DNA of 64,000 bases, taken from NCBI RefSeq assembly GCF_032883915.1, contig NZ_CP120717.1, forward strand, positions 5,968,501-6,032,500, read 5' to 3'. The stretch's first letter is position 1, and the number at the start of each line of letters is the position of its first letter. Below are positions 2,306-61,883 of the stretch, one piece after another. The position numbers were made by a program, and so were the translations under genes. Source of the DNA: Endozoicomonas sp. 8E. GTDB taxonomy: Bacteria; Pseudomonadota; Gammaproteobacteria; Pseudomonadales; Endozoicomonadaceae. A model generated the notes under the pieces. The model was given only the letters and a program-made list of their open reading frames with translations, searched no databases and was not told where the DNA came from.

Positions 2306-2350
2306 TCTATCTTTCCTCTCTGTGCGTCTGGAAGCAAGGATAAAATCATT
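2306..2350 (+). promoter_or_regulatory. SD-sequestering hairpin and AUU start of unit 2
   Basis: The 5' arm (2306-2314, TCTATCTTT) can pair with the 3' arm (2336-2344, AAGGATAAA), which contains the Shine-Dalgarno AAGGA; one pair is G.U and one position is mismatched. The loop is 21 nt. ATC (2345) and ATT (2348) follow at once; ATT lies 7 nt after AAGGA. A TTGACA box is at 2277-2282 with only a poor -10 (CTTGAT) downstream. Later entries give arms and variants only. Confidence 0.65.
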
Positions 2351-5074
2351 AAATACTCACTCTTTGCGGCACCTCTGCTGCTACTTTCCCTGACTGTCGC
2401 CTGTCAGGCCGAAACGTTGACCAGACGTTTTATTGTCGAGCTTCAGCAGGATGCAGTTTTTTCAAACCAGAGTTTTTCTATAAAAACAGACCAACGTTCA
2501 CTGTCGGATAACCCGTCAGATATTGCTGACAAAAACGGCTTTAAAAGACCAGATTTAGTCTCTGATTATAAACGACAGAGTTTTTTTAGTTACAAAGAAA
2601 AAACAACCCTCATTGAGTCGATTTCCTGGCAGTTGCTTTACGCCACGAATTTGCTGGTTGCCTTCGAACTGATCATGACCAGCAAAGCCCCTCCTCTGGG
2701 TGCTACCTCTTATTCATGGCTACCGATAGAAGGGATTGTCACTGTCGGCTGGCTTTTGAAAAGCTATTGGAACCCCGACTCACTACTGTTTAAACCGATT
2801 GAACAATCAGAAATGAGGTTGACACAGGGGAGTCAACCCTTTGCGATCACTGCTATGATGCACGGCTCCGGAGATGACCAACAACAACCACAACAACAAA
2901 GCCAGACACCAGAGTCATCTGGCCAGCATGCCCTCAGCCAGCCAACAGGCGCTTTCACCAGCCCTCTCTATTCTGGCTCCGGTGATGGCCATGGAGACCC
3001 TCAACGAAACGCACATACTTTAGGTTTAGATTGTTTCGTCCACCCCTGTCATGGCGTTTGTAAATTCCGATCATCTTCCGAAAACATGGGGCCAGCTGAA
3101 AGGTCGCTGAATTCTGAAGAAAGTCGGGCTAGCCGTACAGGAGCAACATCCGGACAAAACTCATGTCCCCATAATTGTCAGTGCTATCGTTGCACCTGGC
3201 ATTCTGATCCTGCAAATGAAACATCAAATGATCCCTTTGCCATTCAACTCCAATGCACTTCTGGCCAACTGGTACATGGCATTGATGATAACCCGGTCAA
3301 TACAACCGCCCCTGCAGAGCAAATCGCCTGTAACCTGAAAATGGTCGATAAGGATGGCCAGCTACGGAATTGCGAGAAAGTTTACAAGAGTGCTCAATCC
3401 CTTTTGAATCACAGAAGAGCATACCACACCGGTAAAAAAACCTGTCTCGCGCCCGTGGTCGGGAAGGATGGCCGACTGCGACCATGCGGGGAGGTCCGGA
3501 AAAATGCCGTTGCCCTGTCGTATCACAAAAGAACAGCGCACACCGGGCAACAAACCTGTAACGTCATGATAGTCACAGAGGATGGTCAGGAACGGCCATG
3601 CGGAAAGGTCTGCATAAATGCCAGCGCCCTGTCGGATCACAAAAAAAACGCCCACAGCGAGCAAAAAGCCTGTGAAGTCATCGTGATCGGCAAGGATGGT
3701 AAACCGCAACCATGCGGGAAGGTCTGCAAAAATGCCAGAGCCCTGTCGAATCACAAAAGAGACACCCACAGCGGGAAAAAAGCCTGTGAAGTCATCGTGG
3801 TCGGCAAGGACGGTAAACCGCAACCATGCGGGAAGGCCTGCAAAAATGCCAGTGCCCTGTCGAAGCACAAAGGAAGTGCGCACACGGAGCAAAAAAACTG
3901 TGACGTGACCGTGATCGAAGAGGATGGCAAGCAGCGACCTTGCGGAACGGTCTGCAAGAGCGCCAAAGCCCTGTCGTCTCACAAGCTTGGATGCCACAGC
4001 GGGCAAAAAACCTGTGAAGTCATCGTGGTCGGCAAGGATGGTAGACCGCAACCATGCGGGAGGGTCTGCAAGAATGCCTATATCCTGTCGAATCACAAAA
4101 ATAGCACCCACACCGGGCAAAGAACCTGTGATCTGACGGTGGTCAGCGAGGATGGTCAACCGCAGCCATGCGGGAGACTCTTCAAGAGTGCTCAATCTCT
4201 CGCGTGTCACAAATTGAGACACCACAGCGGGCAAAAAACCTGTGACCTGATCATGGTCGAAGAGGATGGCCAACAGCGACCTTGCGGAGCTGTCTGCAAG
4301 AACGCCAGAGCCTGGTCGTCTCACAAGCTTGGATACCACAGCGGGCAAAAAGCCTGTGAAGTCATCGTGGTCGGCAAGGATGGTAAGCCGCAACCGTGCG
4401 GGAAGGTCTGCAAAAATGCCAGTGCCCTGTCGAAGCACAAAGGAAGGGCGCACACGGAGCAAAAAAACTGTGACGTGACCGTGGTCGAAGAGGATGGCAA
4501 GCAGCGACCTTGCGGAAGGGTCTGCAAGAGCGCCAAAGCCCTGTCGTCTCACAAGCTTGGATACCACAGCGGGCAAAAAACCTGCGAAGTCATCGTGGTC
4601 GGCAAGGATGGTAAACCGCAACCATGCGGGAGGGTCTGCAAGAATGCCTATATCCTGTCGAAGCACAAAAATAACGCCCACACCGGGCAAAAAAACTGTG
4701 ACCTGACCGTGGTCGAAGAGGATGGCCGACAGCGACCTTGCGGAACGGTCTGCAAGAGCGCCATAGCTCTGTCGTCTCACAAGCTTGGATACCACAGCGG
4801 GCAAATGACCTGTGAAGTCATCGTGGTCGGCAAGGATGGTAAACCGCAACCATGCGGGAGGGTCTGCAAGACTGCCTATACCCTGTCAGATCACAAAAAA
4901 AGACAACACAGCGGGCAAAAAACCTGCGATGTGATCGTGGCCGATAAGGATGGCCAGCAGCGGCTATGTGGAAAGGTTTACAAGAATATATATACCCTGT
5001 CTGTGCACAAAAGAATACATCGAAAACGCAAGCTTGTTGATGCGGACCAGAAAGACGGTCTCAGCCCTCTTTAA
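2348..5074 (+). CDS. Unit 2: secreted C2H2-repeat protein, subfamily I, 15 fingers
   Basis: Predicted 908 residues from ATT. Residues 1-21 are a signal peptide (K-Y-S then a Leu-rich core, ending CQA before E22). The N-terminal domain has two hydrophobic stretches at about 92-109 and 125-141. A Gln-rich spacer follows, then C229-x4-C-x3-C238 and a second Cys cluster CPHNCQCYRC (C273-C282). Fingers start at C328. In each, the second Cys begins CGKVCKN, aligning with Krueppel CGKxF, and LSxH aligns with LxxH. The last finger is H-x3-H followed by RKRKLVD. The only NTG near the 5' end is a TTG at 2417, after the signal peptide and without a Shine-Dalgarno. Fingers 5-7 and 10-12 are a duplicated triplet. 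Function is unknown; zinc-dependent nucleic-acid or protein binding is inferred from the finger pattern. Confidence 0.9.
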   Translation: MKYSLFAAPLLLLSLTVACQAETLTRRFIVELQQDAVFSNQSFSIKTDQRSLSDNPSDIADKNGFKRPDLVSDYKRQSFFSYKEKTTLIESISWQLLYATNLLVAFELIMTSKAPPLGATSYSWLPIEGIVTVGWLLKSYWNPDSLLFKPIEQSEMRLTQGSQPFAITAMMHGSGDDQQQPQQQSQTPESSGQHALSQPTGAFTSPLYSGSGDGHGDPQRNAHTLGLDCFVHPCHGVCKFRSSSENMGPAERSLNSEESRASRTGATSGQNSCPHNCQCYRCTWHSDPANETSNDPFAIQLQCTSGQLVHGIDDNPVNTTAPAEQIACNLKMVDKDGQLRNCEKVYKSAQSLLNHRRAYHTGKKTCLAPVVGKDGRLRPCGEVRKNAVALSYHKRTAHTGQQTCNVMIVTEDGQERPCGKVCINASALSDHKKNAHSEQKACEVIVIGKDGKPQPCGKVCKNARALSNHKRDTHSGKKACEVIVVGKDGKPQPCGKACKNASALSKHKGSAHTEQKNCDVTVIEEDGKQRPCGTVCKSAKALSSHKLGCHSGQKTCEVIVVGKDGRPQPCGRVCKNAYILSNHKNSTHTGQRTCDLTVVSEDGQPQPCGRLFKSAQSLACHKLRHHSGQKTCDLIMVEEDGQQRPCGAVCKNARAWSSHKLGYHSGQKACEVIVVGKDGKPQPCGKVCKNASALSKHKGRAHTEQKNCDVTVVEEDGKQRPCGRVCKSAKALSSHKLGYHSGQKTCEVIVVGKDGKPQPCGRVCKNAYILSKHKNNAHTGQKNCDLTVVEEDGRQRPCGTVCKSAIALSSHKLGYHSGQMTCEVIVVGKDGKPQPCGRVCKTAYTLSDHKKRQHSGQKTCDVIVADKDGQQRLCGKVYKNIYTLSVHKRIHRKRKLVDADQKDGLSPL
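3781..4695 (+). repeat. Duplicated three-finger block in unit 2
   Basis: A 342 bp, three-finger block at about 3781-4122 recurs at about 4351-4692, offset by exactly 570 bp (five finger periods). The two copies share finger order (ASALSKHK, AKALSSHK, AYILSxHK types) and differ at few bases, so the duplication is recent. Confidence 0.85.
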
Positions 5075-5141
5075 GGTAATGTGAATAAGTAACCACCTTT
5101 AACAGAAGGTTTTTGACAGAAAAACACGCTTACTTTCTTGA

Positions 5142-5186
5142 TCTATCCTTCCTCTCTGTATATCTGGAGGCGAGGATAAAATCATT
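5142..5186 (+). promoter_or_regulatory. SD-sequestering hairpin and AUU start of unit 3
   Basis: Arms 5142-5150 (TCTATCCTT) and 5172-5180 (GAGGATAAA); the A-to-G change at the first paired base keeps pairing as G.U. ATT is at 5184. A GGAGG lies in the loop. Confidence 0.6.
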
Positions 5187-6866
5187 AAATACTCAGTCTG
5201 TACGGCACCCCTGCTGCTACTTTCCCTGACTCTCGCCTGCCAGGCCGAAACGTTGACCAGACGTTTTATTGTCGAACCTCAGCAGGATGCTGTTTTTTCA
5301 AACCGGAGTTTTTCTATAAAAACAGACAAATGTTTACTGTCGTATAAACCGTCAGGTATTGCCAACAAAAACGGCTTCAAAAGACCAGATTTACCCTCTG
5401 ATGATAAGCGACAAAGATTTTTCAGTTACGAAGTAAAAACAACCCTCATTGAATCGATCTCATGGCATGTGCTTTACGCCACAAATTTGCTGGTTGCCTT
5501 CGAACTGATCATTACCAGCAAAACCTCCTCTCTGGGTTCCAGTGCCTATTCAAGGCTACCGATAGAAGAGATTGTCACTGTCGGCTGGCTTTTGGAAAGC
5601 TATTGGAACCCCGACTCACCGCTGTTTAAACCGACTGAACAAGCAGAGGTGAGGTTGACACAGGGGAGTCAACCCTTTGCGATCGCTGCTATGATGCACG
5701 GCTCCGGAGATGACCAACAACAAAGCCAGCTATCGGAGTCATCTGGCCAACAAGCCCCAGAGGCCACCAGCCAACCAGCAAGTGTTTTCACCAGCCCTCT
5801 GTCTTCTGGCTCCGGTGACGGCTACCGAGACCCTCAACAACACGTACATACTTTAGGTTTAGATTGTTTCGTCCACCCCTGTCATGGCATTTGTAAATTA
5901 CGACCACCTTTCGAAAACATGGGGCCAGCCGAAAGGTCGCTGATTTCTGAAGGTAGTCTGGCAAGCCATACAGGAGCAATTGGCATTGTTGACAACCCGG
6001 TCAATACAACCGCTCCTGCAGTGCCAGTCCCCTGTAACCTGACAATGCTTGATGAGGATGGTCAGCTTCGGAATTGCGAGAAAGTCTACAAGAGTGTTCA
6101 ATCCCTTTTGAATCACCAAAGAAAAATCCACACCGGTAAAAAAACCTGTCTTACGACCGTGGTCGGAAACGATGGCCGGTTGCGACCATGCGGGGAGGTC
6201 TGGAAAAATGCCGTTGCCCTGTTGCATCACAGAAGAACGGCGCACACGAGTCAACAAACCTGTGACCTCATAATGGTCACAGAGGATGGCCAGGAACGGC
6301 CATGCGGAAAGGTCTGCATGAATGCCAGCGCCCTGTCGAGTCACAGAACAAACATCCACACCGGGCAAAGAACCTGTGATGTGACCCTGATCGGGGAGTA
6401 TGGTCAGCCGCGGCCATGCGGAAAGGTTTGCAACAATACTCAAGCCCTTTATTATCACAAAAGAAGAGAACACACCGGGCGACAAACCTGTGTCGTTATG
6501 ATGGCTGGGGAGGATGGCGAGCGACGGCCATGCGGAAAGGTATGCAACAATGCCCAAGCCCTTAATAATCACAAAAGAAGAGAACACACCGGACGACAAA
6601 CCTGTGGCCTTATGATGGTCACAGAGGATGGCCAGCGGCGACCATGCGGGAAGGTCTACAAGAATAGAAAGACCCTCTGGGATCACAAAAAAAATGCCCA
6701 CACCGGGCAAAAAGCCTGTGATGTGATCCTGGCCGATGAGGATGGCCAACAGCGGCCATGTGGAAAGGTTTACAAGAATGCCAAAGACCTGTCTGTGCAC
6801 AAAAGAACACATCTCAAACGCAAGCCTGTTGATACGAACCAGAAAGACGGTCTCAGCCCTCCATAA
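5184..6866 (+). CDS. Unit 3: secreted C2H2-repeat protein, subfamily I, 7 fingers
   Basis: Predicted 560 residues from ATT, one of the shortest intact subfamily I members. The spacer has lost the CPHNCxCYRC cluster and its flanks, jumping from 'SHTGAI' to 'DNPVNTTAP', but keeps the C-x4-C-x3-C motif. Fingers start at C284. Fingers 4 and 5 are near copies (CNNxQALxxHKRREH). The last finger carries the HLKRKPVD variant of the basic tail. It ends in TAA, with a vestigial GKVNK reading just beyond. Confidence 0.9.
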   Translation: MKYSVCTAPLLLLSLTLACQAETLTRRFIVEPQQDAVFSNRSFSIKTDKCLLSYKPSGIANKNGFKRPDLPSDDKRQRFFSYEVKTTLIESISWHVLYATNLLVAFELIITSKTSSLGSSAYSRLPIEEIVTVGWLLESYWNPDSPLFKPTEQAEVRLTQGSQPFAIAAMMHGSGDDQQQSQLSESSGQQAPEATSQPASVFTSPLSSGSGDGYRDPQQHVHTLGLDCFVHPCHGICKLRPPFENMGPAERSLISEGSLASHTGAIGIVDNPVNTTAPAVPVPCNLTMLDEDGQLRNCEKVYKSVQSLLNHQRKIHTGKKTCLTTVVGNDGRLRPCGEVWKNAVALLHHRRTAHTSQQTCDLIMVTEDGQERPCGKVCMNASALSSHRTNIHTGQRTCDVTLIGEYGQPRPCGKVCNNTQALYYHKRREHTGRQTCVVMMAGEDGERRPCGKVCNNAQALNNHKRREHTGRQTCGLMMVTEDGQRRPCGKVYKNRKTLWDHKKNAHTGQKACDVILADEDGQQRPCGKVYKNAKDLSVHKRTHLKRKPVDTNQKDGLSPP

Positions 6867-6933
6867 GGTAAAGTGAATAAGCAACGACCTTTAGCAGAAG
6901 GTTTTTGACAGAAAAACAAACTTACTTTCTTGA

Positions 6934-6978
6934 CCTATCCTTCCTCTCTGTGTATATAGAGGCAAGGATAAAATCATT
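6934..6978 (+). promoter_or_regulatory. SD-sequestering hairpin and AUU start of unit 4
   Basis: Arms 6934-6942 (CCTATCCTT) and 6964-6972 (AAGGATAAA), seven contiguous pairs. ATT is at 6976. The whole 5' region is nearly identical to that of unit 16, 25 kb away. Confidence 0.6.
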
Positions 6979-9225
6979 AAATACTCACTCTTTGCGGCAC
7001 CTCTGCTACTTTCGCTGACTGTCGCCTGTCAGGCCGAAACGTTGAAAAGACGTTATATTGTCGAGCTTCAACAGGATGCAGCTTTTTCAAACCAGAGTTT
7101 TTCCATAAAGCCAGACCAACGTGCGCTGTCCGATAGCCCGTCAGATATTGCCAACAAAAACGGCTTTAAAAGACCAGATTTACCCTCTGATTATAAACGA
7201 CAAAGATTTTTCAGTTACGAAGTAAAAACAACTCTGATTGAATCGATCTCATGGCAGTTGCTTTACGCCACGAATTTGCTGGTTGCCTTCGAACTGATCA
7301 CGACCAGCAAAGCCCCCCCTTTGGGTATTACCTCTTATTCATGGCTACCGATAGAAGGGATTATCACTGTCGGCTGGCTTTTGAAAAGCTATTGGAACTC
7401 AGACTCACCGCTGTTTAAACCGACTGAACAAACAGAGGTGAGTTTGACACAGGGGAGTCAACCGTTTGCGATCATTGCTATGATGCACGGCTCCGCATAT
7501 GACCAACAACAAAGCCAGCTATCAGAGTCATCTGGCCAACAGGCTCCAAAGGCCAACAGCCAACCAGCAAGTGTTTTCACCAGCCCTCTGTCTTATGGCT
7601 CCGGTGACGGCTACGGAGACCCTCAACAACACTCGCATACCTTGGGTTTAGATTGTTTCGTCGACCCCTGTCATGGCGTTTGTAAATTCCGATCATCTTC
7701 CGAAAACACAGGGCCAGCTGAAGGGGCGCTGAATTCTGGAGAAATTCTGGCAAGCCATACAGGAGCAATACCCGGACAAAACTCATGCCCCCATAATTGT
7801 CTCTGCTATCGTTGCATCTGGAATTTTGATCCTGCAAATGAAACATCAAGTGATCCCTTTGGCATTCAACTCCAATGGGCTTCTGACCTACTATTTCAGA
7901 TACACGGCATTGATGACAACCCGGTCAATACAACCGCCCCTGAGGATACAGTCAGCTGTAACCTGACAATGGTCAATGAGGATGGCCAGCTACAGTATTG
8001 CGAGAAAGTCTACAAGAGTGTTCAATCCCTTTCGAATCACCAAAGAAAATTCCACACCGGTAAAAAAGCCTGTCTCGCGCCCGTGGTCGGGAAGGATGAC
8101 CGGCTGCGACCATGCGGGGAGGTCTGCAAAAATGCCAGTGCCCTGTCGAATCACAAAAGAAGGGCCCACACCGGGCAACAGACCTGCGACGTGACAGTGA
8201 TCGAAGAGGATGGCCAGCAGCGACCTTGTGGGAAGGTCCGGAAAAATGCCGGAGCCCTATCGAATCACAAGATAAGGGCCCACACCGGGCAACAAACCTG
8301 CGACGTGACAGTGATCGAAGAGGATGGCCAGCAGCGACCTTGCACAACGGTCTGCAAGAGCACTATAGCCTTGTCGTCTCAAAAGGTCAGCTGTAACCTG
8401 ACAATGGTCGATGAGGATGGCCAGCTACGGTATTGCGAGAAAGTCTACAAGAGTGTTCAATCCCTTTCGGATCACCAAAGAAAAGTCCACACCGGTAAAA
8501 AAAACTGTCTCGCGCCCGTAGTCGGGAAGGATGGTCGGCTGCGACCATGCGGGAAGGTCTGCAAAAATGCCAGTGCCCTGTCGAATCACAAAAGAAGGAC
8601 CCACACCGGGCAACAGACCTGTGACGTGACAGTGGTCGAAGAGGATGGCCAGCAGCGACCTTGTGGGAAGGTCTGGAAAAATGCCGGTGCCCTGTCAAAT
8701 CACAAGATAAGGACCCACACCGGGCAACAAACCTGCGACGTGACAGTGATCGAAGAGGATGGCCAGCAGCGACCTTGCGGAACGGTCTGCAAGAGCTCCA
8801 GAGCCTTGTCGTCTCACAAGCGTGGATGCCACAGCGGGCAAAAAACCTGTGAAGTAATCGTGGTCGGCAAGGATGATAAGCCGCAACCATGCGGGAGGGT
8901 CTGCAAGAGCGTCATCGCCCTGTCGAGTCACAAAAGAAACGCCCACACCGGGCAAAGAATCTGTGACCTGACCGTGGTCGGGGAGGATGGTCAGGCGCGG
9001 CCATGCGGAACACTCTGCAAGAGTGCTCAATCTTTCTCGTGTCATAAATTCAGCCACCACACCGGGGAAAAAATCTGTGACGTGACCGTGGTCGACGAAT
9101 ATGGCCAGCCGAGGTTATGTGGAAAGGTTTACAAGAATGCATGTACCCTGTCTAAGCACAAAAGAGCACATCAAAAACGAAAGCCTGTTGATGCGGACCT
9201 GAAAGACGGCCTCAACCCTCCATAA
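6976..9225 (+). CDS. Unit 4: secreted C2H2-repeat protein, subfamily I, with a 435 bp internal duplication
   Basis: Predicted 749 residues. The signal peptide has one Leu fewer than its neighbours, and the mature start reads TLKRRYIVEL, both shared only with unit 16. Fingers start at C328. Eleven finger units are present: the first four (the fixed opening set) occur twice because of an in-frame tandem duplication. The fourth finger is broken at the junction: its first His is Gln (ALSSQK) and the second is lost. The tail is HQKRKPVD. Confidence 0.9.
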   Translation: MKYSLFAAPLLLSLTVACQAETLKRRYIVELQQDAAFSNQSFSIKPDQRALSDSPSDIANKNGFKRPDLPSDYKRQRFFSYEVKTTLIESISWQLLYATNLLVAFELITTSKAPPLGITSYSWLPIEGIITVGWLLKSYWNSDSPLFKPTEQTEVSLTQGSQPFAIIAMMHGSAYDQQQSQLSESSGQQAPKANSQPASVFTSPLSYGSGDGYGDPQQHSHTLGLDCFVDPCHGVCKFRSSSENTGPAEGALNSGEILASHTGAIPGQNSCPHNCLCYRCIWNFDPANETSSDPFGIQLQWASDLLFQIHGIDDNPVNTTAPEDTVSCNLTMVNEDGQLQYCEKVYKSVQSLSNHQRKFHTGKKACLAPVVGKDDRLRPCGEVCKNASALSNHKRRAHTGQQTCDVTVIEEDGQQRPCGKVRKNAGALSNHKIRAHTGQQTCDVTVIEEDGQQRPCTTVCKSTIALSSQKVSCNLTMVDEDGQLRYCEKVYKSVQSLSDHQRKVHTGKKNCLAPVVGKDGRLRPCGKVCKNASALSNHKRRTHTGQQTCDVTVVEEDGQQRPCGKVWKNAGALSNHKIRTHTGQQTCDVTVIEEDGQQRPCGTVCKSSRALSSHKRGCHSGQKTCEVIVVGKDDKPQPCGRVCKSVIALSSHKRNAHTGQRICDLTVVGEDGQARPCGTLCKSAQSFSCHKFSHHTGEKICDVTVVDEYGQPRLCGKVYKNACTLSKHKRAHQKRKPVDADLKDGLNPP
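7951..8820 (+). repeat. 435 bp in-frame tandem duplication in unit 4
   Basis: GTCAGCTGTAACCTGACAAT at 7951 recurs at 8386. The copies (7951-8385 and 8386-8820) cover nearly four fingers including the first-finger type, which otherwise occurs once per gene. The breakpoint is inside a finger, not at a finger boundary. Confidence 0.9.
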
Positions 9226-9292
9226 GGTAATGTGAATAAGCAACCACTTTTAGCAAAAGATTTTTGACAGAAAAACACGTTTGCTTTCTTGA

Positions 9293-9337
9293 TCTATCCT
9301 TCCTCTCTGTATATCTGGAGGCAAGGATAAAATCATT
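9293..9337 (+). promoter_or_regulatory. SD-sequestering hairpin and AUU start of unit 5
   Basis: Arms 9293-9301 and 9323-9331 (AAGGATAAA); ATT at 9335. The upstream terminator-like hairpin has decayed (CACTTTTAGCAAAAGAT). Confidence 0.6.
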
Positions 9338-11278
9338 AAATACTCACTCTTTGCGGCACCTCTGCTGCTACTTTCGCTGACTGTCGCCTGTCAGGCCGAA
9401 ACGTTGACCAGACGATATATTGTCGAGCTTAAACAGGATGCAGTTTTTTCAAACCAAAGTTTTTCTATAAAGCCAGACCAACGTGTATTGTCGTATAATA
9501 CGTCGGATATTGCCCACAAAAAAGGCTCTATAAGATCAGATTTACCCTCTGATTATAATCGACAAAAATTTTTCAGTTACGAAGTAAAAACAACCCTCAT
9601 TGAGTCGATTTCCTGGCAGTTGCTTTACGCCACGAATTTGCTGGTTGCCTTCGAACTGATTATGACCAGCAAAGCCCCACCTCTGGGTGCTACCTCTTAT
9701 TCATGGCTACCGGTAGAAGGGGTTGTCACTGCCGGCTGGCTTTTGAAAAGCTATTGGAACCCCGACTCAGAGCTGCTTAAACCGATTGAACAATCAGAAA
9801 TGAGGTTGATACTGGGGAATCAGCCCTTTGCGATCACTACTATGATGCACGGCTCCGGATATGGCCAACAACAAAGCCAGCTACCAGAGTCATCTGGCCA
9901 ACAGGCCCCACCAGCCACCAGCCACCAGCCAACAAGCGCTTTCACCAGCCCTCTGCATTCTGGCTCCGGTGACGGCTACGGAGACCCTCAACAAAACGCA
10001 CATACTTTAGGTTTAGATTGTTTCGTCCCCCCTTGTCATGGCGTTTGTAAGTTCCGATCATCATCTGAAAACATGGAGCCCGCTGAAAGGTCGCTGAATT
10101 CTGAAGAAAGTCTGGCGAGCCCTGCAGGAGCAGCACCCGGACAAAGCTCATGCCCCCATAATTGTCTCTGCTATCGTTGCATCAAACATTCTGATCCTGC
10201 AAATGAGACATCACATAATCCCTTTGCCATTCAACTCCAATGCGCTTCTGGCCAAGTATTTCAGATACATGACATTGATGACAATCCGGTCAATACAACC
10301 GCTCCTGCAGTGCCAGCCCCCTGTAACCTGAAAATCGTCGATCAGCATGGCCAGCTGCACAATTGCGAGAAAGTCTACAAGAGTGTTCAATCCCTTTTGA
10401 ATCACCAAAGAAAAATCCACACCGGCCAAAAAACCTGTCTCGCGCCCGTGGTCGGGAAGGATGGCCGACTGCGACCATGCGGGAAGGTCTGGAAAAATGC
10501 CGGTGCCCTGTCGAGTCACAAAAAAAAGACCCATACCGGGCAACAAATCTGTGCAGTCATAATGGTCACAGAGGATGGTCAGGAACGGCCATGCGGAAAG
10601 GTCTGCGTGAATGCCATCGCCCTGTCGAGCCACAAAAAAAGCGCCCACTCCGGACAAAGAACCTGTGATATGGCCGTGGTCGCAGAGGATGGTCAGCCGC
10701 GGCCATGCGGGAAACTCTGCAAAAGTGCTCAATCTCTCTCGTGCCATAAATTCAGACAACACACCGGGAAAAAAACCTGTGACGTAACCGTGGTCGGAGA
10801 GGATGGTAAACTGCAACCATGCGGGAGAGTCTGCAAGAGCGCCAAAACCCTGTCGTCTCACAAGCTTGGATGCCACAGCGGGAAAAAAACCTGTGACCTG
10901 ACCCTGGTCGGAGAGGATGGCCAGCAGCGGCCATGCGGGAAGGTCTGCGTGAATGTCAGGGCTCTAAAGTATCACAAAACAAGTGCTCACACCGGGCAAC
11001 AAACCTGTAGCGTAATGATGGTCGGGAAGAATGGCGAGCAATGGCCATGCGGTAAGGTTTGCAAGAATAGCCAGGCCCTTTATGTTCACAAAAGAATTCC
11101 CCACACTGGGCAACAAACCTGTGACGTCAAAATGGTCGGGGAGGATGGCCAACAGTGGCTATGTGGAAAGGTTTACAAGAATGTCAAAGCCCTGTCTGTG
11201 CACAAAAGAATACATCGCAAACGCAAGCCTGTCGATGCGAAACAGAAAGACGGTCTCAGCCCTCAAGTGAATAAGTGA
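9335..11278 (+). CDS. Unit 5: secreted C2H2-repeat protein, subfamily I, 8 fingers
   Basis: Predicted 647 residues. The N-terminal domain (KxGSIRSDLPSDYNRQ) and spacer (SHQPTSAFTSPLHSGS, SENMEPA) match unit 6, so these neighbours are a recent gene duplication. The Cys cluster CPHNCLCYRC is present. Fingers start at C330; the last two (SQALYVHKRIPH, QQWLCGKVYK) also match the end of unit 6, while the middle differs by insertion or loss of fingers. The stop is TGA after PQVNK, where a six-residue stretch seen in other tails is deleted. Confidence 0.9.
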   Translation: MKYSLFAAPLLLLSLTVACQAETLTRRYIVELKQDAVFSNQSFSIKPDQRVLSYNTSDIAHKKGSIRSDLPSDYNRQKFFSYEVKTTLIESISWQLLYATNLLVAFELIMTSKAPPLGATSYSWLPVEGVVTAGWLLKSYWNPDSELLKPIEQSEMRLILGNQPFAITTMMHGSGYGQQQSQLPESSGQQAPPATSHQPTSAFTSPLHSGSGDGYGDPQQNAHTLGLDCFVPPCHGVCKFRSSSENMEPAERSLNSEESLASPAGAAPGQSSCPHNCLCYRCIKHSDPANETSHNPFAIQLQCASGQVFQIHDIDDNPVNTTAPAVPAPCNLKIVDQHGQLHNCEKVYKSVQSLLNHQRKIHTGQKTCLAPVVGKDGRLRPCGKVWKNAGALSSHKKKTHTGQQICAVIMVTEDGQERPCGKVCVNAIALSSHKKSAHSGQRTCDMAVVAEDGQPRPCGKLCKSAQSLSCHKFRQHTGKKTCDVTVVGEDGKLQPCGRVCKSAKTLSSHKLGCHSGKKTCDLTLVGEDGQQRPCGKVCVNVRALKYHKTSAHTGQQTCSVMMVGKNGEQWPCGKVCKNSQALYVHKRIPHTGQQTCDVKMVGEDGQQWLCGKVYKNVKALSVHKRIHRKRKPVDAKQKDGLSPQVNK

Positions 11279-11328
11279 CGACCTTTAGCAGAAGATTTTT
11301 GACAGAAAAAACACGCTTACTTTCTTGA

Positions 11329-11373
11329 TCTATCCTTCCTCTCTGTAGATCTGGAGGCAAGGATAAAATCATT
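11329..11373 (+). promoter_or_regulatory. SD-sequestering hairpin and AUU start of unit 6
   Basis: Arms 11329-11337 and 11359-11367; ATT at 11371. The loop holds GGAGG, which could extend the stem against CCTC with a one-base bulge. Confidence 0.6.
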
Positions 11374-13998
11374 AAATACTCACTCTTTGCAGCACCTCTG
11401 CTGCTACTTTCGCTGACCGTTGCCTGTCAGGCCGATACGTTGACCAGACGTTATATTGTCGAGCTTAAACAGGATGCAGTTTTTTCAAACCAGAGTTTTT
11501 CTATAAAGCCAGACCAACGTGCACTGTCGGTTAATCGATCGGATATTGCCGACAAAAACGGCTCTATAAGATCAGATTTACCCTCTGATTATAATCGACA
11601 AAGATTGTTCAGTTACGAAGTAAAAACAACCCTCATTGATTCGGTTTCCTGGCAGCTGCTTTACGCCACGAATTTGCTGGTTGCCTTCGAACTGATCATG
11701 ACCAGCAAAGCCCCCCCTCTGGGTGCTACCTCTTGTTCATGGCTACCGGTAGAAGGGATTGTCACTGCCGGCTGGCTTTTGAAAAGCTATTGGAACCCCG
11801 ACTCACCGCTGTTTAAACCGACTGAACAAGCAGAGGTGAGGTTGACACAGGGGAGTCAACCCTTTGCGATCACTACTATGATGCACGGCTCCGGATATGA
11901 CCAGCAACAAAGCCAGCTACCAGAGTCATCTGGCCAACAGGCCCCACCAGCCATCAGCCACCAGCCAACAAGCGCTTTCACCAGCCCTCTGCATTCTGGC
12001 TCCGGTGACGGCTACGGAGACCCTCAACAAAACGCACATACTTTAGGCTTAGATTGTTTCGTCCACCCCTGTCATGGCGTTTGTAAGTTCCGATCTTCAT
12101 CTGAAAACATGGAGCCCGCTGCATGGTCGCTGAATTCTGAAGAAAGTCTGGCAAGCCCTGCAGGAGCAACACCCGGACAAAACTCATGCCCCCATAATTG
12201 TCTCTGCTATCGTTGCATCAGACATTCTGATCCTGCAAATGAGACATCACATAATCCCTTTGCCATTCAACTCCAATGCGCTTCTGGCCAGGTATTTCAG
12301 GTACATGACATTGATGAGAATCCGGTCAATACAACCGCTCCTGCAGTGCCAGTCCCCTGTAACCTGAAAATCGTCGATAAGCATGGCCAGCCGCGCAATT
12401 GCGAGAAAGTCTACAAGAATACTCAATCCCTTTTGAATCACAAAAGAAAAGTCCACACCGGTAAAAAAACCTGTTTCTCGCCCGTGGTCGGGAAGGATGG
12501 CCAGCTGCGACCATGCGGAGAGATCTGGAAAAATGCCCTTGCCCTGTCGAATCACAGAAGAAAGGTGCACAGCGGGCAACAAACCTGTAACGTCATAATG
12601 GTCATAGAAGATGGTCAGGAACGGCCATGCGGAAAGATCTGCATGAATGCCAATGCTCTGTCGAGTCACAAAAAAGGTGCCCACACAGGGCAAAGAGCCT
12701 GTGATGTGACCGTGGTCGCAGAGAATGGCCAGCAACGGCCTTGCGCAAAGGTCTGCAAAAGCGCCAGAGCCTTGTCGACTCACAAGCTTGGATACCACAG
12801 CGGGCAAAAAACCTGTGAAGTAATCCTGGTCGGCAAGGATGGTAAACAGCAACCATGCGGGAGGGTCTGCAAGAATGCCAGCGCCCTGTCGAGTCACAAA
12901 AAAAACGCCCACACCGGGCAAAGAACCTGTAATGTGACCGTGGTCGGGAAGGATGGTCAGCTGCGGCCATGCGGGAAACTCTGCAAGAGCACTCAATCTC
13001 TCTATTCTCATAAGTTCAATCAACACAGCGGGCAAAAAACCTGTGACGTAACCCTGGTCGTAGAGGATGGCCAGCAGCAACCTTGCGGAACGGCCTGCAA
13101 GAGCGCCAGAGCCTTGTCGGCTCACAAGCTTGGATGCCACAGCGGGCAAAAAATCTGTGAAGTAATCGTGATCGGCAAGGATGGTAAACCGCAGCCATGC
13201 GGGAGGGTCTGCATGAATGCCAATGCTCTGTCGAGTCACAAAAAAGCTGCCCACACAGGGCAAAGAGCCTGTGATGTGACCGTGGTCGCAGAGGATGGTC
13301 AGCCGCGGCCATGTGGGACAATCTGCAAGAGTGCTCAACTTCTCTCGTCTCATAAATTCGATCAACACAGCGGGCAAAAAACCTGTGACTTAACCGTGGT
13401 CGGAGAGGATAGCCAGCAGCGACCTTGCGGAACCGCCTGCAAGAGCGCCAGAGCCTTGTCGTCTCACAAGCTTGGATGCCACAGCGGGCAAAAAACCTGC
13501 AATATGCTCGTTGCCGATGAGGATGGCCAGCAGCGGCCATGCGGGAAGGTCTGTATGAATATCAACGCTCTGCGGTATCACAAAAAAAGCGCTCACACCG
13601 AGCAACGAACCTGTAACGTTATGATGGTCGGTGAGGATGGCCAGCAGCGGCCATGCGGGAAAGTCTGTATGAATATCAACACTCTACGGTATCACAAAAA
13701 AATCACTCACACCGGGCAACAAACCTGTAGCGTTATGATGATCGGGGAGGATGGCGAGCAACGACCATGCGGTAAGGTTTGCAAGAATAGCCAGGCCCTT
13801 TATGATCACAAAAGAATTCCCCACACTGGGCAACAAGCCTGTGGCGTCAAAATGGTCGGGGAGGATGGCCAGCAGTGGCTATGTGGAAAGGTTTACAAGA
13901 ATGCCAAAGCCCTGTCTGTACACAAAAGAATACATCGCAAACGCAAGCCTGTCGATGCGAAAGAGAAAGACGGTCTCAGCCCTCCAGTGAATAAATGA
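11371..13998 (+). CDS. Unit 6: secreted C2H2-repeat protein, subfamily I, 14 fingers
   Basis: Predicted 875 residues. It is the sister of unit 5 but has six more fingers. Fingers start at C330. The central fingers alternate between an ALSxHKLGxH type and an ALSSHKKxAH type, and fingers 11 and 12 (CMNINALRYHKK and CMNINTLRYHKK) are near copies, both consistent with local finger amplification. The tail RKRKPVDAKEKDGLSPPVNK ends in TGA. Confidence 0.9.
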   Translation: MKYSLFAAPLLLLSLTVACQADTLTRRYIVELKQDAVFSNQSFSIKPDQRALSVNRSDIADKNGSIRSDLPSDYNRQRLFSYEVKTTLIDSVSWQLLYATNLLVAFELIMTSKAPPLGATSCSWLPVEGIVTAGWLLKSYWNPDSPLFKPTEQAEVRLTQGSQPFAITTMMHGSGYDQQQSQLPESSGQQAPPAISHQPTSAFTSPLHSGSGDGYGDPQQNAHTLGLDCFVHPCHGVCKFRSSSENMEPAAWSLNSEESLASPAGATPGQNSCPHNCLCYRCIRHSDPANETSHNPFAIQLQCASGQVFQVHDIDENPVNTTAPAVPVPCNLKIVDKHGQPRNCEKVYKNTQSLLNHKRKVHTGKKTCFSPVVGKDGQLRPCGEIWKNALALSNHRRKVHSGQQTCNVIMVIEDGQERPCGKICMNANALSSHKKGAHTGQRACDVTVVAENGQQRPCAKVCKSARALSTHKLGYHSGQKTCEVILVGKDGKQQPCGRVCKNASALSSHKKNAHTGQRTCNVTVVGKDGQLRPCGKLCKSTQSLYSHKFNQHSGQKTCDVTLVVEDGQQQPCGTACKSARALSAHKLGCHSGQKICEVIVIGKDGKPQPCGRVCMNANALSSHKKAAHTGQRACDVTVVAEDGQPRPCGTICKSAQLLSSHKFDQHSGQKTCDLTVVGEDSQQRPCGTACKSARALSSHKLGCHSGQKTCNMLVADEDGQQRPCGKVCMNINALRYHKKSAHTEQRTCNVMMVGEDGQQRPCGKVCMNINTLRYHKKITHTGQQTCSVMMIGEDGEQRPCGKVCKNSQALYDHKRIPHTGQQACGVKMVGEDGQQWLCGKVYKNAKALSVHKRIHRKRKPVDAKEKDGLSPPVNK

Positions 13999-14047
13999 CG
14001 ACCTTTAGCAGAAGATTTTTGACAGGAAAACACGTTTACTTTCTTGA

Positions 14048-14092
14048 TCTATCCTTCCTCTCTGTACATCTGGAGACAAGGATAAAATCATT
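14048..14092 (+). promoter_or_regulatory. SD-sequestering hairpin and AUU start of unit 7
   Basis: Arms 14048-14056 and 14078-14086; ATT at 14090. The loop reads GGAGAC in place of GGAGGC, so only the main stem is available. Confidence 0.6.
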
Positions 14093-16348: not shown

Positions 16349-16378
16349 CGACCTTTAGCAGAAGGTTTTTGACAGAAA

Positions 16379-17461
16379 AGATTGCCACTGTCGGCTGGCT
16401 TTTGAAAAGCTATTGGAACCCCGACTCAGCGCTGTTTAAACCGACTGGACAAACAGAGGTGAGGTTGACACAGGGGAGTCAACCCTTTGCGATCACTGCT
16501 ATGATGCATGGCTCCGGAGATGAGCAACAACAAAACCAGCCATCAGAATCATCTGGCCAACAAGCTCCACAGGCCATCAGTCAACCAACAAGTGCTTTCA
16601 CCAGCCCTCTGTATTCTGGCTCCGGTGACGGCTACGAAGACCCTCAACAACACTCACACACTTTGGCTTTAGATTGTTTCGTTCACCCCTGTCACGGCGT
16701 TTGTAAATTCCGACCATCTTCCGAAAACATGGGGCCAACTGAAAGGGCCTGAATTCTAAAGAAAGTCTTGCAAGCCGAACAGCTGCATCACCCGGACAAG
16801 ACTCATGCCCCATAATTGCCTCTGCCATCGTTGCATCAGGCATTCTGATCCTGCAAATAAAACATCAAATGATCCCTTTGCCATTCAACTCCAATGCACT
16901 TCTGGCCAACTGGCACATGGCATTGATGACAACCCGGTCAATACAACCGCCCCTGCAGAGCAAATCGCCTGTAACCTGAAAATGGTCGATAAGGATGGCC
17001 GGCTACGACCATGCGGGGAGGTCTGGAAAAATGTCAGTGCTCTGGCGAATCACAGAATAAAGGCGCACACCGGGCAACAAACCTTTAACGTCATAATGAT
17101 CACAGAGGATGGTCAGGAACGGCCATGCGGAAAGGTCTGCATGAATGCCAGAGCCCTGTCGAATCACAAAAAAAGCACGCACACCGGGCAAAGAACCTGT
17201 GACGTAACCCTGGTCGGACAGGATGGCCAGCAGCGACCCTGCGGAACGGTCTGCAAGAGCACAAAAGCCTTGTCAGCTCACAAGCTTGGATGCCACAGCG
17301 GGCAAAAAACCTGTGAAGTAATTGTGGTCGGTAAGGAGGGTAAAGCGCAACCATGCGGGAGGACCTGCAAGAATGCCGGCGCCCTGTCGAATCACAAAAG
17401 AATACACCGAAAACGCAAGCCTTTTGATGCGAACCAGAAAGACGGCTCAAGCCCTCCATAA
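16379..17461 (+). pseudogene. Unit 8: truncated and frameshifted C2H2-repeat remnant
   Basis: The spacer after unit 7 breaks off at about 16379 and joins directly to the middle of the N-terminal domain (IATVGWLLKSYW). This removes the hairpin, start, signal peptide and roughly 110 codons. Compared with intact units there is a one-base deletion near 16747, giving TGA at 16750, and a second one-base deletion near 16809 (four C instead of five). The finger part stays open from 16805 to 17461: four fingers, the first fused from fingers 1 and 2 (CNLKMVDKDGRLRPC) and the second with Cys changed to Phe (TFNVIM). No signal peptide can be reached in frame. Confidence 0.85.
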
Positions 17462-17528
17462 GGTAAAGTGAATAACCAGGAACCTTTAGCAGAAGGTTTT
17501 TGACAGAAAAACACGTTTACTTTCTTGA

Positions 17529-17573
17529 TCTATCCTTCCTCTCTGTATATCTGGAGGTAAGGATAAAATCATT
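17529..17573 (+). promoter_or_regulatory. SD-sequestering hairpin and AUU start of unit 9
   Basis: Arms 17529-17537 and 17559-17567; ATT at 17571. The loop has GGAGGT before the arm. Confidence 0.6.
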
Positions 17574-19511: not shown

Positions 19512-19578
19512 GGTAAAGTGAATAAGTAAGAACCTTTAGCAGAAGGTTTTTGACAGAAAAACACCTTTATTTTCTTGA

Positions 19579-19623
19579 TCTATCCTTCCTCTCTGTATAT
19601 CTGGAGACAAGGATAAAATCATT
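19579..19623 (+). promoter_or_regulatory. SD-sequestering hairpin and AUU start of unit 10
   Basis: Arms 19579-19587 and 19609-19617; ATT at 19621. Confidence 0.6.
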
Positions 19624-21891: not shown

Positions 21892-21910
21892 GGTAATGTG
21901 AATAAGTAAC

Positions 21911-21931
21911 AACCTTTAGCAGAAGGTTTTT
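21911..21931 (+). terminator. Terminator-like hairpin after unit 10
   Basis: AACCTT (21911-21916) and AAGGTT (21923-21928) form a perfect 6 bp stem with loop TAGCAG, followed by more T. This is the best-formed copy of the spacer hairpin in subfamily I. Confidence 0.4.
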
Positions 21932-21959
21932 GACAGAAAAAACACGCTTGCTTTCTTGA

Positions 21960-22004
21960 TCTATCCTTCCTCTCTGTATATCTCGAGACAAGGATAAAAT
22001 CATT
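21960..22004 (+). promoter_or_regulatory. SD-sequestering hairpin and AUU start of unit 11
   Basis: Arms 21960-21968 and 21990-21998; ATT at 22002. The loop contains CTCGAGAC. Confidence 0.6.
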
Positions 22005-23669: not shown

Positions 23670-23736
23670 GGTAATGTGAATAAGTAACAACCTTTAGCAG
23701 AAGGTTTTTGACAGAAAAACACGTTTAATTTCTTCA

Positions 23737-23781
23737 TCTATCCTTCCTCTCTGTATATCTGGAGACAAGGATAAAATCATT
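23737..23781 (+). promoter_or_regulatory. SD-sequestering hairpin and AUU start of unit 12
   Basis: Arms 23737-23745 and 23767-23775; ATT at 23779. The normally invariant CTTGAT before the arm is CTTCAT here. Confidence 0.6.
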
Positions 23782-26353: not shown

Positions 26354-26398
26354 TCTATCCTTCTTCTCTGTATATCTGGAGGCAAGGATAAAATCATT
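26354..26398 (+). promoter_or_regulatory. SD-sequestering hairpin and AUU start of unit 13
   Basis: Arms 26354-26362 and 26384-26392; ATT at 26396. The preceding TTGACA box is TTGAAA here. Confidence 0.6.
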
Positions 26399-27779: not shown

Positions 27780-27823
27780 TCTATCCTTCCTCTCTGTATA
27801 TCTGAGGCAAGGATAAAATCATT
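27780..27823 (+). promoter_or_regulatory. SD-sequestering hairpin and AUU start of unit 14
   Basis: Arms 27780-27788 and 27809-27817; ATT at 27821. The loop is 20 nt instead of 21 (one G missing from GGAGGC). Confidence 0.6.
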
Positions 27824-29623: not shown

Positions 29624-29668
29624 TCTATCCTTCCTCTCTGTATATCTGGAGGCAAGGATAAAATCATT
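29624..29668 (+). promoter_or_regulatory. SD-sequestering hairpin and AUU start of unit 15
   Basis: Arms 29624-29632 and 29654-29662; ATT at 29666. The upstream box is TTGATA instead of TTGACA. Confidence 0.6.
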
Positions 29669-32131: not shown

Positions 32132-32208
32132 GCTAAAGTGAATAAATGGCGACCTTTAGCAGAAGGTTTTTGACAGAAAAACAAACTTACTTTCTTGATC
32201 TATCCTTC

Positions 32209-32243
32209 CTCTCTGTATATCCAGAGGCAAGGATAAAATCATT
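32209..32243 (+). promoter_or_regulatory. SD-sequestering hairpin and AUU start of unit 16
   Basis: Arms 32209-32217 and 32229-32237; ATT at 32241. The loop here is shorter in sequence but keeps AGAGGC before the arm. Confidence 0.55.
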
Positions 32244-34154: not shown

Positions 34155-34156
34155 CG

Positions 34157-34203: not shown

Positions 34204-34248
34204 TCTATCCTTCCTCTCTGTAAGCCAAAAAGCAAAGATAGAATTATT
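34204..34248 (+). promoter_or_regulatory. SD-sequestering hairpin and AUU start of unit 17
   Basis: Arms 34204-34212 (TCTATCCTT) and 34234-34242 (AAAGATAGA), with one C-A mismatch that also weakens the Shine-Dalgarno. From here on the codon before the start is ATT rather than ATC. ATT is at 34246. Confidence 0.5.
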
Positions 34249-36076: not shown

Positions 36077-36121
36077 TCTATCCTTCCTCTCTGTAAACCA
36101 GAATGCAAGGATAGAATTATT
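36077..36121 (+). promoter_or_regulatory. SD-sequestering hairpin and AUU start of unit 18
   Basis: Arms 36077-36085 (TCTATCCTT) and 36107-36115 (AAGGATAGA): nine contiguous Watson-Crick pairs. ATT at 36119. Confidence 0.68.
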
Positions 36122-37918: not shown

Positions 37919-37963
37919 TCTATCCTTCCTCTCTGTATGCCAGAATGCAGGGATAGAATTATT
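37919..37963 (+). promoter_or_regulatory. SD-sequestering hairpin, upstream ATG and AUU of unit 19
   Basis: Arms 37919-37927 and 37949-37957 (AGGGATAGA); the change leaves a U.G pair. An in-frame ATG at 37937 lies in the loop, preceded only by pyrimidines (CTTCCTCTCTGT). ATT is at 37961. Confidence 0.55.
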
Positions 37964-39676: not shown

Positions 39677-39715
39677 CAAATGTTATTTGACAGAAAAACA
39701 CGCTTATTTTCTTGA

Positions 39716-39760
39716 TCTATCCTTCCTCTCTGTATACCAGAAGGCAAGGATAGAATTATT
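39716..39760 (+). promoter_or_regulatory. SD-sequestering hairpin and AUU start of unit 20
   Basis: Arms 39716-39724 (TCTATCCTT) and 39746-39754 (AAGGATAGA), nine perfect pairs with a 21 nt loop. A competing pair CCTTC/GAAGG is available inside the loop. ATT at 39758. Confidence 0.68.
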
Positions 39761-42265: not shown

Positions 42266-42304
42266 CAACAAGTTTTTGATAGAAAGGCAGGCTTGTTTTC
42301 TTGA

Positions 42305-42349
42305 TCTATCCTTCCTCTCTGTATACCAGAACGCAGGGATAGAATTATT
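42305..42349 (+). promoter_or_regulatory. SD-sequestering hairpin and AUU start of unit 21
   Basis: Arms 42305-42313 and 42335-42343 (AGGGATAGA), pairing kept through one U.G. ATT at 42347. Confidence 0.58.
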
Positions 42350-44446: not shown

Positions 44447-44470
44447 CAGAAAACATAGTTGCTTTCTTGA

Positions 44471-44515
44471 TCTATCCTTCCTCTCTGTTAGCCAGAAAGC
44501 AAGGATAGAATTATT
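44471..44515 (+). promoter_or_regulatory. SD-sequestering hairpin and AUU start of unit 22
   Basis: Arms 44471-44479 and 44501-44509 (AAGGATAGA), nine perfect pairs. An in-frame TAG in the loop rules out any start further upstream. ATT at 44513. Confidence 0.68.
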
Positions 44516-46645: not shown

Positions 46646-46692
46646 CGGTCTTCAACAGAGGTTTCGACAGAGAAACACGCTTATTTTCTTGA

Positions 46693-46737
46693 TCTATCCT
46701 TCCTATCTGTATAATGGAACGCAAGGACAGGATTATT
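46693..46737 (+). promoter_or_regulatory. SD-sequestering hairpin, ATG and AUU of unit 23
   Basis: Arms 46693-46701 and 46723-46731 (AAGGACAGG); the stem is weaker, with two mismatches outside AAGGA. An in-frame ATG at 46714 lies in the loop, 7 codons before ATT at 46735. Confidence 0.5.
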
Positions 46738-48642: not shown

Positions 48643-48705
48643 TGATCTTTAACTGAGGGTCTTTAACGGAAGGTCTTTGACAGAAAAACTCCTTTATCTT
48701 CTTGT

Positions 48706-48750
48706 TCTATTCTTCTTCTCTGTATACCAGAACGCAAGGATAGAATTATT
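48706..48750 (+). promoter_or_regulatory. SD-sequestering hairpin and AUU start of unit 24
   Basis: Arms 48706-48714 (TCTATTCTT) and 48736-48744 (AAGGATAGA); the C-to-T change keeps pairing as U.G. ATT at 48748. Confidence 0.62.
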
Positions 48751-50553: not shown

Positions 50554-50602
50554 CGATTACTGACAGAAGTCTTTTGACAGAAACGCATCTTTATTTTCTT
50601 GA

Positions 50603-50647
50603 TCTATCCTTCCTTTCTGTAAGCCGGAGCGCAAGGATAGAATTATT
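50603..50647 (+). promoter_or_regulatory. SD-sequestering hairpin and AUU start of unit 25
   Basis: Arms 50603-50611 and 50633-50641 (AAGGATAGA), nine perfect pairs. The loop (CCTTTCTGTAAGCCGGAGCG) is well diverged from subfamily I while the arms are not. ATT at 50645. Confidence 0.68.
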
Positions 50648-52465: not shown

Positions 52466-52513
52466 CAATCTTTAACAGAAGTTTTTTGACAGAGAAACAC
52501 GCTTATTTATTGA

Positions 52514-52558
52514 TCTATCCTTCCTCTCTGTAAATCAGAAGGCAAGGATAGAATTATT
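52514..52558 (+). promoter_or_regulatory. SD-sequestering hairpin and AUU start of unit 26
   Basis: Arms 52514-52522 and 52544-52552 (AAGGATAGA), nine perfect pairs. ATT at 52556. Confidence 0.68.
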
Positions 52559-54880: not shown

Positions 54881-54929
54881 AGATCACCAACAGAAGTCTT
54901 TTGACAGAAAAGCACCTTTATTTTCCTGA

Positions 54930-54974
54930 TCTATCCTTCCTCTCTGTAAGTCGGAACACAAGGATAGAATTATT
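54930..54974 (+). promoter_or_regulatory. SD-sequestering hairpin and AUU start of unit 27
   Basis: Arms 54930-54938 and 54960-54968 (AAGGATAGA), nine perfect pairs. ATT at 54972. Confidence 0.68.
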
Positions 54975-57002: not shown

Positions 57003-57051
57003 TGATCTTTAGCAGAAGGTCTTGAACAGAAAAACACCCTTATTTTCCTGA

Positions 57052-57096
57052 TCTATCCTTCTTCTCGTAAAGTCAGAAAGCAAGGATAGAATTATT
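57052..57096 (+). promoter_or_regulatory. SD-sequestering hairpin and AUU start of unit 28
   Basis: Arms 57052-57060 and 57082-57090 (AAGGATAGA), nine perfect pairs. The TTGACA box has become TTGAACA. ATT at 57094. Confidence 0.65.
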
Positions 57097-59160: not shown

Positions 59161-59164
59161 CGGT

Positions 59165-59176
59165 CTTCAACTGAAG
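59165..59176 (+). terminator. Short inverted repeat after unit 28
   Basis: CTTCA/TGAAG with almost no loop replaces the ACCTT/AAGGT stem of earlier spacers at the same place; the same sequence follows unit 29. Too small to be a convincing terminator by itself. Confidence 0.25.
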
Positions 59177-59209
59177 GTTATTGACAGAGTAACACCCTTA
59201 TTTTTCTGG

Positions 59210-59254
59210 TCTATCCTTCCTTTCTGTAAACTAGAACGCAAGAATAGAATTATT
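59210..59254 (+). promoter_or_regulatory. SD-sequestering hairpin and AUU start of unit 29
   Basis: Arms 59210-59218 (TCTATCCTT) and 59240-59248 (AAGAATAGA), one C-A mismatch and a weakened Shine-Dalgarno. ATT at 59252. Confidence 0.5.
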
Positions 59255-61789: not shown

Positions 61790-61838
61790 CGGTCTTCAAC
61801 TGAAGGTTGTTGACAGAGTAACACCCTTATTTTTCTGG

Positions 61839-61883
61839 TCTATCCTTCTTTTCTGTAAGCCAGAACGCAAGGATAGAATTATT
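61839..61883 (+). promoter_or_regulatory. SD-sequestering hairpin and AUU start of unit 30
   Basis: Arms 61839-61847 (TCTATCCTT) and 61869-61877 (AAGGATAGA), nine perfect pairs, although the flank is now CTGGTCT and the loop has changed. ATT at 61881. Confidence 0.68.

Follow-up and report, generated by a model that had tools for sequence, protein, structure and literature searches.

The window analyzed here is a 64-kb stretch of DNA (G000:C1:5968501-6032500) from the 7.38-Mb single-contig genome of Endozoicomonas sp. 8E (G000), which belongs to a genus of marine symbionts, and it carries 28 leader-bearing genes of one protein family. We favor, with fair confidence, the reading that the leader of each gene of this family is a two-part translational lock, which combines a buried Shine-Dalgarno (SD) sequence with an AUU start sensitive to the initiation factor IF3. 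In the first part, TCTATCCTT would pair with AAGGATAGA, and the SD AAGGA would be buried in a stem of 7-9 bp. In the second, the frame would start 3 nt past the stem at AUU (AUA or AUC in some copies), with Lys next as a rule; AUU is of the start-codon class that IF3 rejects, as for infC. We infer that the leader folds into this stem in the cell and that translation is thereby repressed, that IF3 acts on these genes, and that both parts make up one control. Default translation of the family proteins would be very low, and it would rise jointly upon opening of the stem or upon relaxed start-codon stringency.

The hairpin over the Shine-Dalgarno sequence

A sequence-only reading of the window had claimed a hairpin in all 28 intact spacers, and this is what we found (28/28), with 7-9 of 9 positions paired. 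The left arm is exactly TCTATCCTT in 25 units and the right arm exactly AAGGATARA in 22. The arms lie 21 nt apart in 27 units and 20 nt apart in one (the unit at 27809). All nine pairs are present in 11 units (8 entirely Watson-Crick, 3 with one G.U), eight in 16 and seven in one. Mismatches, previously reported for units 17, 23 and 29, are commoner than that: 17 of the 28 units bear them, including all units 1-14, which have a C.A mismatch at the second pair (AAGGATAAA or GAGGATAAA). The pattern TCTATCCTT-N(10-35)-AAGGATA occurs 27 times in the window, both strands counted, versus 0 times in 100 dinucleotide shuffles. In most window copies (2306-61883) the left arm TCTATCCTT overlaps GATC.

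A profile of the conserved N-terminal domain of the proteins (N-domain; alignment A1) gave at least 227 matches in the fetched stretches of G000, 220 of them on the + strand; the G000 family counts are lower bounds because only part of the genome was fetched. A readable start region accompanies 207 of these matches. One of the 207 is mis-anchored (6125508) and excluded from the 206-unit counts, and the start counts exclude the 40 of 365 domain matches that begin after model position 12. The hairpin (at least 7 of 9 pairs) is present in 189 of 206 readable start regions of G000, in 97 of 104 in a second species, Endozoicomonas sp. ISHI1 (G027), and in 12 or 13 of 25 family genes across three further species (G020, G023 and G026); the exact arm pattern has 89 forward occurrences in the whole G000 genome. 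In the three further species the arms are kept around loops of 23-26 nt of different sequence (21 nt in G000). The claim that the loop varies among subfamilies while the arms stay is thus borne out, and other species vary the loop length as well. The sequences themselves show a stem that has been retained in different species.

Folding energies, whose calculation the sequence-only reading had proposed, support the stem. Five window units have folding z scores of -2.9 to -4.2, and 223 distinct 39-mers from G000 and G027 (standard spacing) have a mean z of -2.96 against dinucleotide shuffles, with 74% below -2. Shuffling the loop alone gives a z of -1.18, and hence the loop contributes some inner pairing. 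In the minimum-energy fold, the SD is paired at all five bases in 160 of 197 G000 hairpin units and 80 of 103 from ISHI1, as well as in 1 of 2 units from G020 and 4 of 5 from G023, some of these being mis-anchored (the G023 unit 4457917 is so in the fold and covariation counts and is correctly read in the comparison of arms and starts). By prediction, the SD lies in a stable local stem, as expected of an SD-sequestering hairpin. Such a hairpin could be an RNA thermometer, as had been suggested, since the SD is inside it, but this is scarcely credible: the SD is predicted to be about 90% paired throughout 15-50 C, and its predicted exposure goes only from 0.073 at 15 C to 0.121 at 50 C (60 of 197 hairpin units sampled).

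We compared mean pairwise identity per segment within G000, within G027 and between them, over those hairpin units whose arms have the standard spacing (257 of 310). The most conserved segments are codon 2 of the frame (0.963/0.971/0.967) and the left arm (0.936/0.967/0.950), followed by the right arm (0.865/0.831/0.837), the loop (0.760/0.730/0.723) and codons 3-11 (0.743/0.764/0.743). These values bear on the possibility that the leader reflects shared ancestry or gene conversion only, without function. The copies are paralogues and covariation is absent, as that reading would have it, but conservation drops from the left arm and codon 2 to the loop and coding sequence beside them, and some species keep both arms around a different loop. 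We regard it as very improbable.

The start codon

Most family genes appear to lack an ATG, GTG or TTG start, and their signal peptide appears to begin at AUU AAA. Codons 1-2 hold no ATG, GTG or TTG in 192 of 207 units in G000 and in 63 of 104 in ISHI1. Codon 2 is ATT in 190 of the 207 (the remainder being 6 ATC, 1 ATA, 4 GTT and others) and in 98 of the 104, and codon 3 encodes Lys in 186 and 96, respectively. Since ATT makes up only 49.9% (983/1969) of the Ile codons in the rest of the domain, the constraint acts on the nucleotides and not merely on Ile. Codon 1 is more variable (ATT, ATC, ATG, ACT, TTT, GTT and others). The frame is closed by a stop at most 45 nt upstream in 137 units, with no ATG, GTG or TTG between this stop and codon 3. 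The AAGGA ends 7 nt ahead of codon 2, a working SD distance for AUU, AUC or AUA. Codons 3-24 evolve as coding sequence: their ratio of nonsynonymous to synonymous differences (pN/pS) is 0.39, versus 0.53 for the N-domain (245 pairs of at least 60% identity, from 195 units). Read from codon 2, 193 of 206 open reading frames (ORFs) attain 350 aa, and the first downstream ATG, GTG or TTG is typically at codon 7-25. Gene finders that allow ATG, GTG and TTG alone would hence place the start of most family proteins within the signal peptide or behind it, and export would be missed. The AUU start, apparently one of the two halves of the device, went unnoticed in the sequence-only reading.

The other species place the putative AUU/AUA start by exclusion and by homology. 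Hairpin genes from G020, G023 and G026 have GCT, GCC, ACC, ACT or GTC as codon 1, which makes codon 2 (ATT or ATA) the candidate. Four genes read stop-AAG-GAT-AGA-GCC-ATA-AAA (L166, L168, L170 and L172) and one reads stop-AAG-GAG-AGA-ACC-ATA-AAA (L054); with an in-frame stop four codons ahead of ATA AAA in all five, which come from two relatives, their sequence leaves AUA as the only sensible start. In nine paralogues from G020 and G026, ATG, GTG or TTG followed by Lys heads the signal peptide; profile alignment puts it at codon 2 in L053, L058, L063, L174 and L175, and position does so in L070, L075, L080 and L173. Two others, L065 and L167, have an ATG at the head too, with a next codon other than Lys.

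Do the hairpin and the start type go together? The genes of G020, G023 and G026 were found by protein alone (31 matches, about 27 genes), and 25 were classified, leaving out one gene without a visible start region and one weak match. Arms were called present when the left arm had at most 2 mismatches to CTATCCTT and at least 7 of 8 pairs were formed. Among genes with arms, 12 have an AUH start, i.e., AUU, AUC or AUA (8 ATT, 4 ATA), and one has ATG (L173, where the arm pair contains no real SD), whereas genes without arms comprise 2 AUH (L078 and L168) and 10 ATG, GTG or TTG (Fisher p = 2e-4). Arms are thus associated with the apparent AUU/AUA starts in these three relatives. In L078 and L168 the upstream sequence is unlike that of their sisters and looks replaced, and 9 of the 12 AUH arm pairs have all 8 pairs. 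A similar trend is found in G000, where ATG, GTG or TTG starts occur in 6 of 189 units with at least 7 of 9 pairs versus 8 of 17 others (p = 8e-7). Four G026 genes with GTG, ATG or TTG starts (L053, L058, L174 and L175) carry left-arm remnants without a matching right arm, which suggests that arms may decay once a canonical start is present. A replacement hairpin considered in the paralogue L063 (CTTGTCC/GGACAAG) was rejected, since 108 of 200 shuffles reach it.

Two other ideas were tried and set aside. One was a special initiator tRNA: the six exact initiator-type anticodon arms all carry CAT, with two one-mismatch matches besides, and the initiator tRNAs look ordinary. The other was an upstream ATG-led leader peptide; the T of the loop that makes the ATG is present in only 31 of 106 units tallied, which is a rough guide (a strict family filter kept 122 of 153 loose matches). 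The infC gene of G000 itself reads ACAGGAGATACACCC-ATC-AGA-CGT in frame with the IF3 match (L101, ~1468-1470) and seems to start at AUC. Hence, IF3 autoregulation through a non-AUG start is probably present in G000.

Alternative readings and known systems

Several observations weigh against the two-part lock. In ISHI1, ATG, GTG or TTG starts occur in 39 of 97 hairpin units versus 2 of 7 others, which is no association (p = 0.70), and 41 of 104 units have an ATG at codon 1 and keep the hairpin; the association is lacking because one subfamily has this ATG and retains the stem. The start-type comparisons hence indicate that the hairpin does not need AUU, yet AUU without the hairpin is rare outside ISHI1. 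Of the 192 units with no ATG, GTG or TTG at codons 1-2, 16 have one in frame at most 45 nt upstream. The arm pairs of L054, L073 and L177 (7 of 8 pairs) are individually no better than shuffled sequence, and the SD is fully paired in none of the three G026 units folded, some cross-species units being mis-anchored. All the p-values are optimistic, since paralogues and near-identical copies represent fewer independent events. Covariation, the other check that had been proposed, is absent in G000 (1644 of 1773 possible pairs, which 406 of 2000 shuffles reach; the shuffle mean is 1641.8) and on a 16-sequence cross-species alignment (score 0.161 versus 0.162), and weak in ISHI1 (864 of 927 pairs, which 29 of 2000 shuffles reach); as the arms hardly vary, the power of the test is low. 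G.U-compatible changes, earlier said to be frequent in the arms, do not prevail in G000, where among 141 cells of right-arm change in 197 units 54 are A>G, which keep pairing, and 48 are G>A, which break it. A preference for G.U holds in ISHI1 only (57 A>G and 15 G>A of 111 cells). From the earlier proposal, an SD-covering hairpin that the family shares and keeps across species stands, and with it probably translational control, while the covariation does not. Finally, conservation is higher in the left arm (0.94-0.97) than in the right (0.83-0.87), so the left arm may have another role; pairing alone does not account for this excess, which would fit insulation, a DNA-level element or a binding partner alike.

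Insulation from read-through is the first of these. If the promoter of each gene started its RNA downstream of the left arm, the SD of that RNA would be free; transcripts that enter from the neighboring gene would contain both arms and be silent. The leaders of the IS10 and IS50 transposases give protection of this sort from read-through transcripts. The tandem array on one strand with short spacers is what such a device would suit, the left arm is conserved beyond the need of pairing, as a -10 element would be, and the sequence upstream of the module is diverse. However, sigma-70-like promoters are no more frequent than expected (13 found versus 15.3 in positions 1-20000, i.e., 20 of the 64 kb), no conserved -35 partner of TATCCT was seen, and the AUU start is left unexplained. 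We consider insulation unlikely; a literature search on read-through protection found nothing.

The arms could instead be a DNA-level palindrome, an operator or promoter element of which the RNA stem is a by-product. They form an inverted repeat with one spacing in 257 of 310 hairpin units, the left arm is nearly invariant, and the right-arm changes in G000 are not mostly A>G (54/141). Against this, the right arm lies exactly on the SD, and in ISHI1 most of its changes are A>G (57/111), which keeps RNA pairing and breaks DNA symmetry. The spacing also shifts by 2-5 bp between species while the arms are kept, which would turn half-sites against each other. This is not a likely reading either.

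A small RNA, an RNA-binding protein or a ligand might act in trans as a key, binding the left arm or the loop so that the SD is released; this family-wide switch agrees with the lock, for which it would be the opening step. The conservation of the left arm beyond pairing and a U-rich stretch just upstream, conserved in most units, speak for it, but the loop is not conserved between species and Rfam gave 0 matches above the gathering score in the window. Such a key is possible, if doubtful.

Each part of the proposed lock is known singly, and we found no report of a family that shares a buried SD and an AUU start. Hairpins of the 5' untranslated region that sequester the SD occur as thermometers, translational riboswitches and transposase leaders. 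The Endozoicomonas leader resembles them in that its SD is buried in a stem, but it is not temperature-melted in prediction, has no ligand domain that we recognized, is paired with an AUU start and is spread over a whole paralogue family. As for the start, pcnB is a single bacterial gene that uses AUU. The infC gene starts at ATT in Escherichia coli and at ATC in Streptomyces, and IF3 represses non-canonical starts (PMC5472188, available excerpts); in vitro, AUU initiation by the CAU anticodon falls as IF3 rises (PMC10158994, available excerpts). The family resembles infC, which reads ATC in G000, in its AUU/AUC start of the IF3-repressed class (PMC5472188), but infC is one self-controlling gene, whereas here there are about 200 genes per genome and a stem that covers the SD. 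In Streptomyces sigR, an IF3-repressed non-canonical start likewise holds down a regulated gene that was misannotated; unlike the family, sigR is a single gene with a GTC start, and the excerpts of PMC5472188 mention no SD hairpin. The AUU start of Borrelia bbe22/pncA was also missed by annotation, the longer N terminus being the true one, but this is a single enzyme gene and no hairpin is mentioned in the available part of PMC13398362. Two papers mention zinc-finger domains in Endozoicomonas, but no such array or leader in the text available (PMC9743535 and PMC12491435). Searches of mainly openly readable literature on Endozoicomonas with zinc finger or C2H2 gave no report of the leader. Searches combining the genus with SD, start codon, thermometer or riboswitch gave none naming Endozoicomonas among the matches listed, and those on AUU/ATT start codons gave no report of such a family among the matches listed.

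In bacteria, few genes are documented to start at a codon other than AUG, GUG or UUG, and those are single cases; in the genus studied here, AUU or AUA appears to serve a whole family, across five genomes. Should the lock prove real, its hundreds of natural copies would be a parallel test set for how SD burial and start-codon choice combine, and it would be a candidate control of symbiont-host proteins. More tentatively, start-codon stringency could be a global switch, with about 200 probably secreted proteins of one symbiont forming one AUU/buried-SD regulon. A change in IF3 activity or in a stem-opening factor would then turn the family on together.

The gene family and its array

The window ORFs, read from the codon-2 ATT, span 390 to 908 aa, with 706 aa up to the window edge for unit 28 (Table 1). 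Their proteins have a signal-peptide-like head, the conserved N-domain and about nine repeats of the form C-x13-C-x12-H-x3-5-H; the 28 units hold 252 such finger repeats, with 13/4 spacing in 224. All 6 proteins scanned with Pfam have C2H2-type fingers, in 5 of them at a curated cut-off or above it. A structure model of three repeats from window sequences has a mean predicted local distance difference test score (pLDDT) of 87.6, with two strands and a helix per repeat. A Foldseek search of this model against the PDB gave no match at E <= 0.001, the best being the CTCF fingers (E 0.083). The family proteins are probably secreted, and presumably zinc-binding as well.

In G000, 214 N-domain matches form a giant tandem array at ~5.80-6.30 Mb of the contig C1, almost all of them on a single strand, the rest being dispersed. 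Of 37 genomes of the bacterial family, spread over 8 genera, 5 carry the N-domain, and these five, which belong to a single genus, are also the ones with matches to a model of the leader (R1); R1 matches are only partly tied to individual genes, and R1 would miss leaders with other starts because its ATTAAA columns are included and 150 candidates per genome were scored.

Table 1. Leader-bearing units of the window, located by hairpin and ATT start
Unit	Hairpin through ATT	Strand	ATT	ORF end	Remarks
1	2306..2350	+	2348-2350	5074	left arm 2306-2314; right arm with SD 2336-2344
2	5142..5186	+	5184-5186	6866	
3	6934..6978	+	6976-6978	9225	7/9 pairs
4	9293..9337	+	9335-9337	11278	
5	11329..11373	+	11371-11373	13998	
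6	14048..14092	+	14090-14092	16348	
7	17529..17573	+	17571-17573	19511	
8	19579..19623	+	19621-19623	21891	
9	21960..22004	+	22002-22004	23669	
10	23737..23781	+	23779-23781	26289	
11	26354..26398	+	26396-26398	27568	
12	27780..27823	+	27821-27823	29557	20-nt loop
13	29624..29668	+	29666-29668	32131	
14	32199..32243	+	32241-32243	34154	
15	34204..34248	+	34246-34248	36027	
16	36077..36121	+	36119-36121	37879	9 Watson-Crick pairs
17	37919..37963	+	37961-37963	39676	in-loop in-frame ATG (37937)
18	39716..39760	+	39758-39760	42265	
19	42305..42349	+	42347-42349	44221	
20	44471..44515	+	44513-44515	46645	
21	46693..46737	+	46735-46737	48642	in-loop in-frame ATG (46714)
22	48706..48750	+	48748-48750	50553	
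23	50603..50647	+	50645-50647	52465	
24	52514..52558	+	52556-52558	54880	
25	54930..54974	+	54972-54974	57002	
26	57052..57096	+	57094-57096	59160	
27	59210..59254	+	59252-59254	61789	
28	61839..61883	+	61881-61883	continues past window end	

Some copies depart from this scheme. A short ATG-led ORF with finger repeats at 16805-17461 of the window is not among the 28 leader-bearing units and is perhaps a truncated copy. Two hairpins of G000 lie outside the domain set. The one at G000:C1:153673 (- strand) has an AT-rich start and ATC as codon 2, its frame ends after about 44 codons, and it is probably a decayed copy; at 5432254 the N-domain is shortened. In the ISHI1 subfamily that reads ATG ATT AAA (e.g., L081, L087 and L094), the right arm is often AAGGGTAGA. 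The leader upstream of TGATCTATCC has two forms, TTATTTTCT or CATGAGG (in units such as G000:C1:5924824-5931116), which suggests recombination at the edge of the module.

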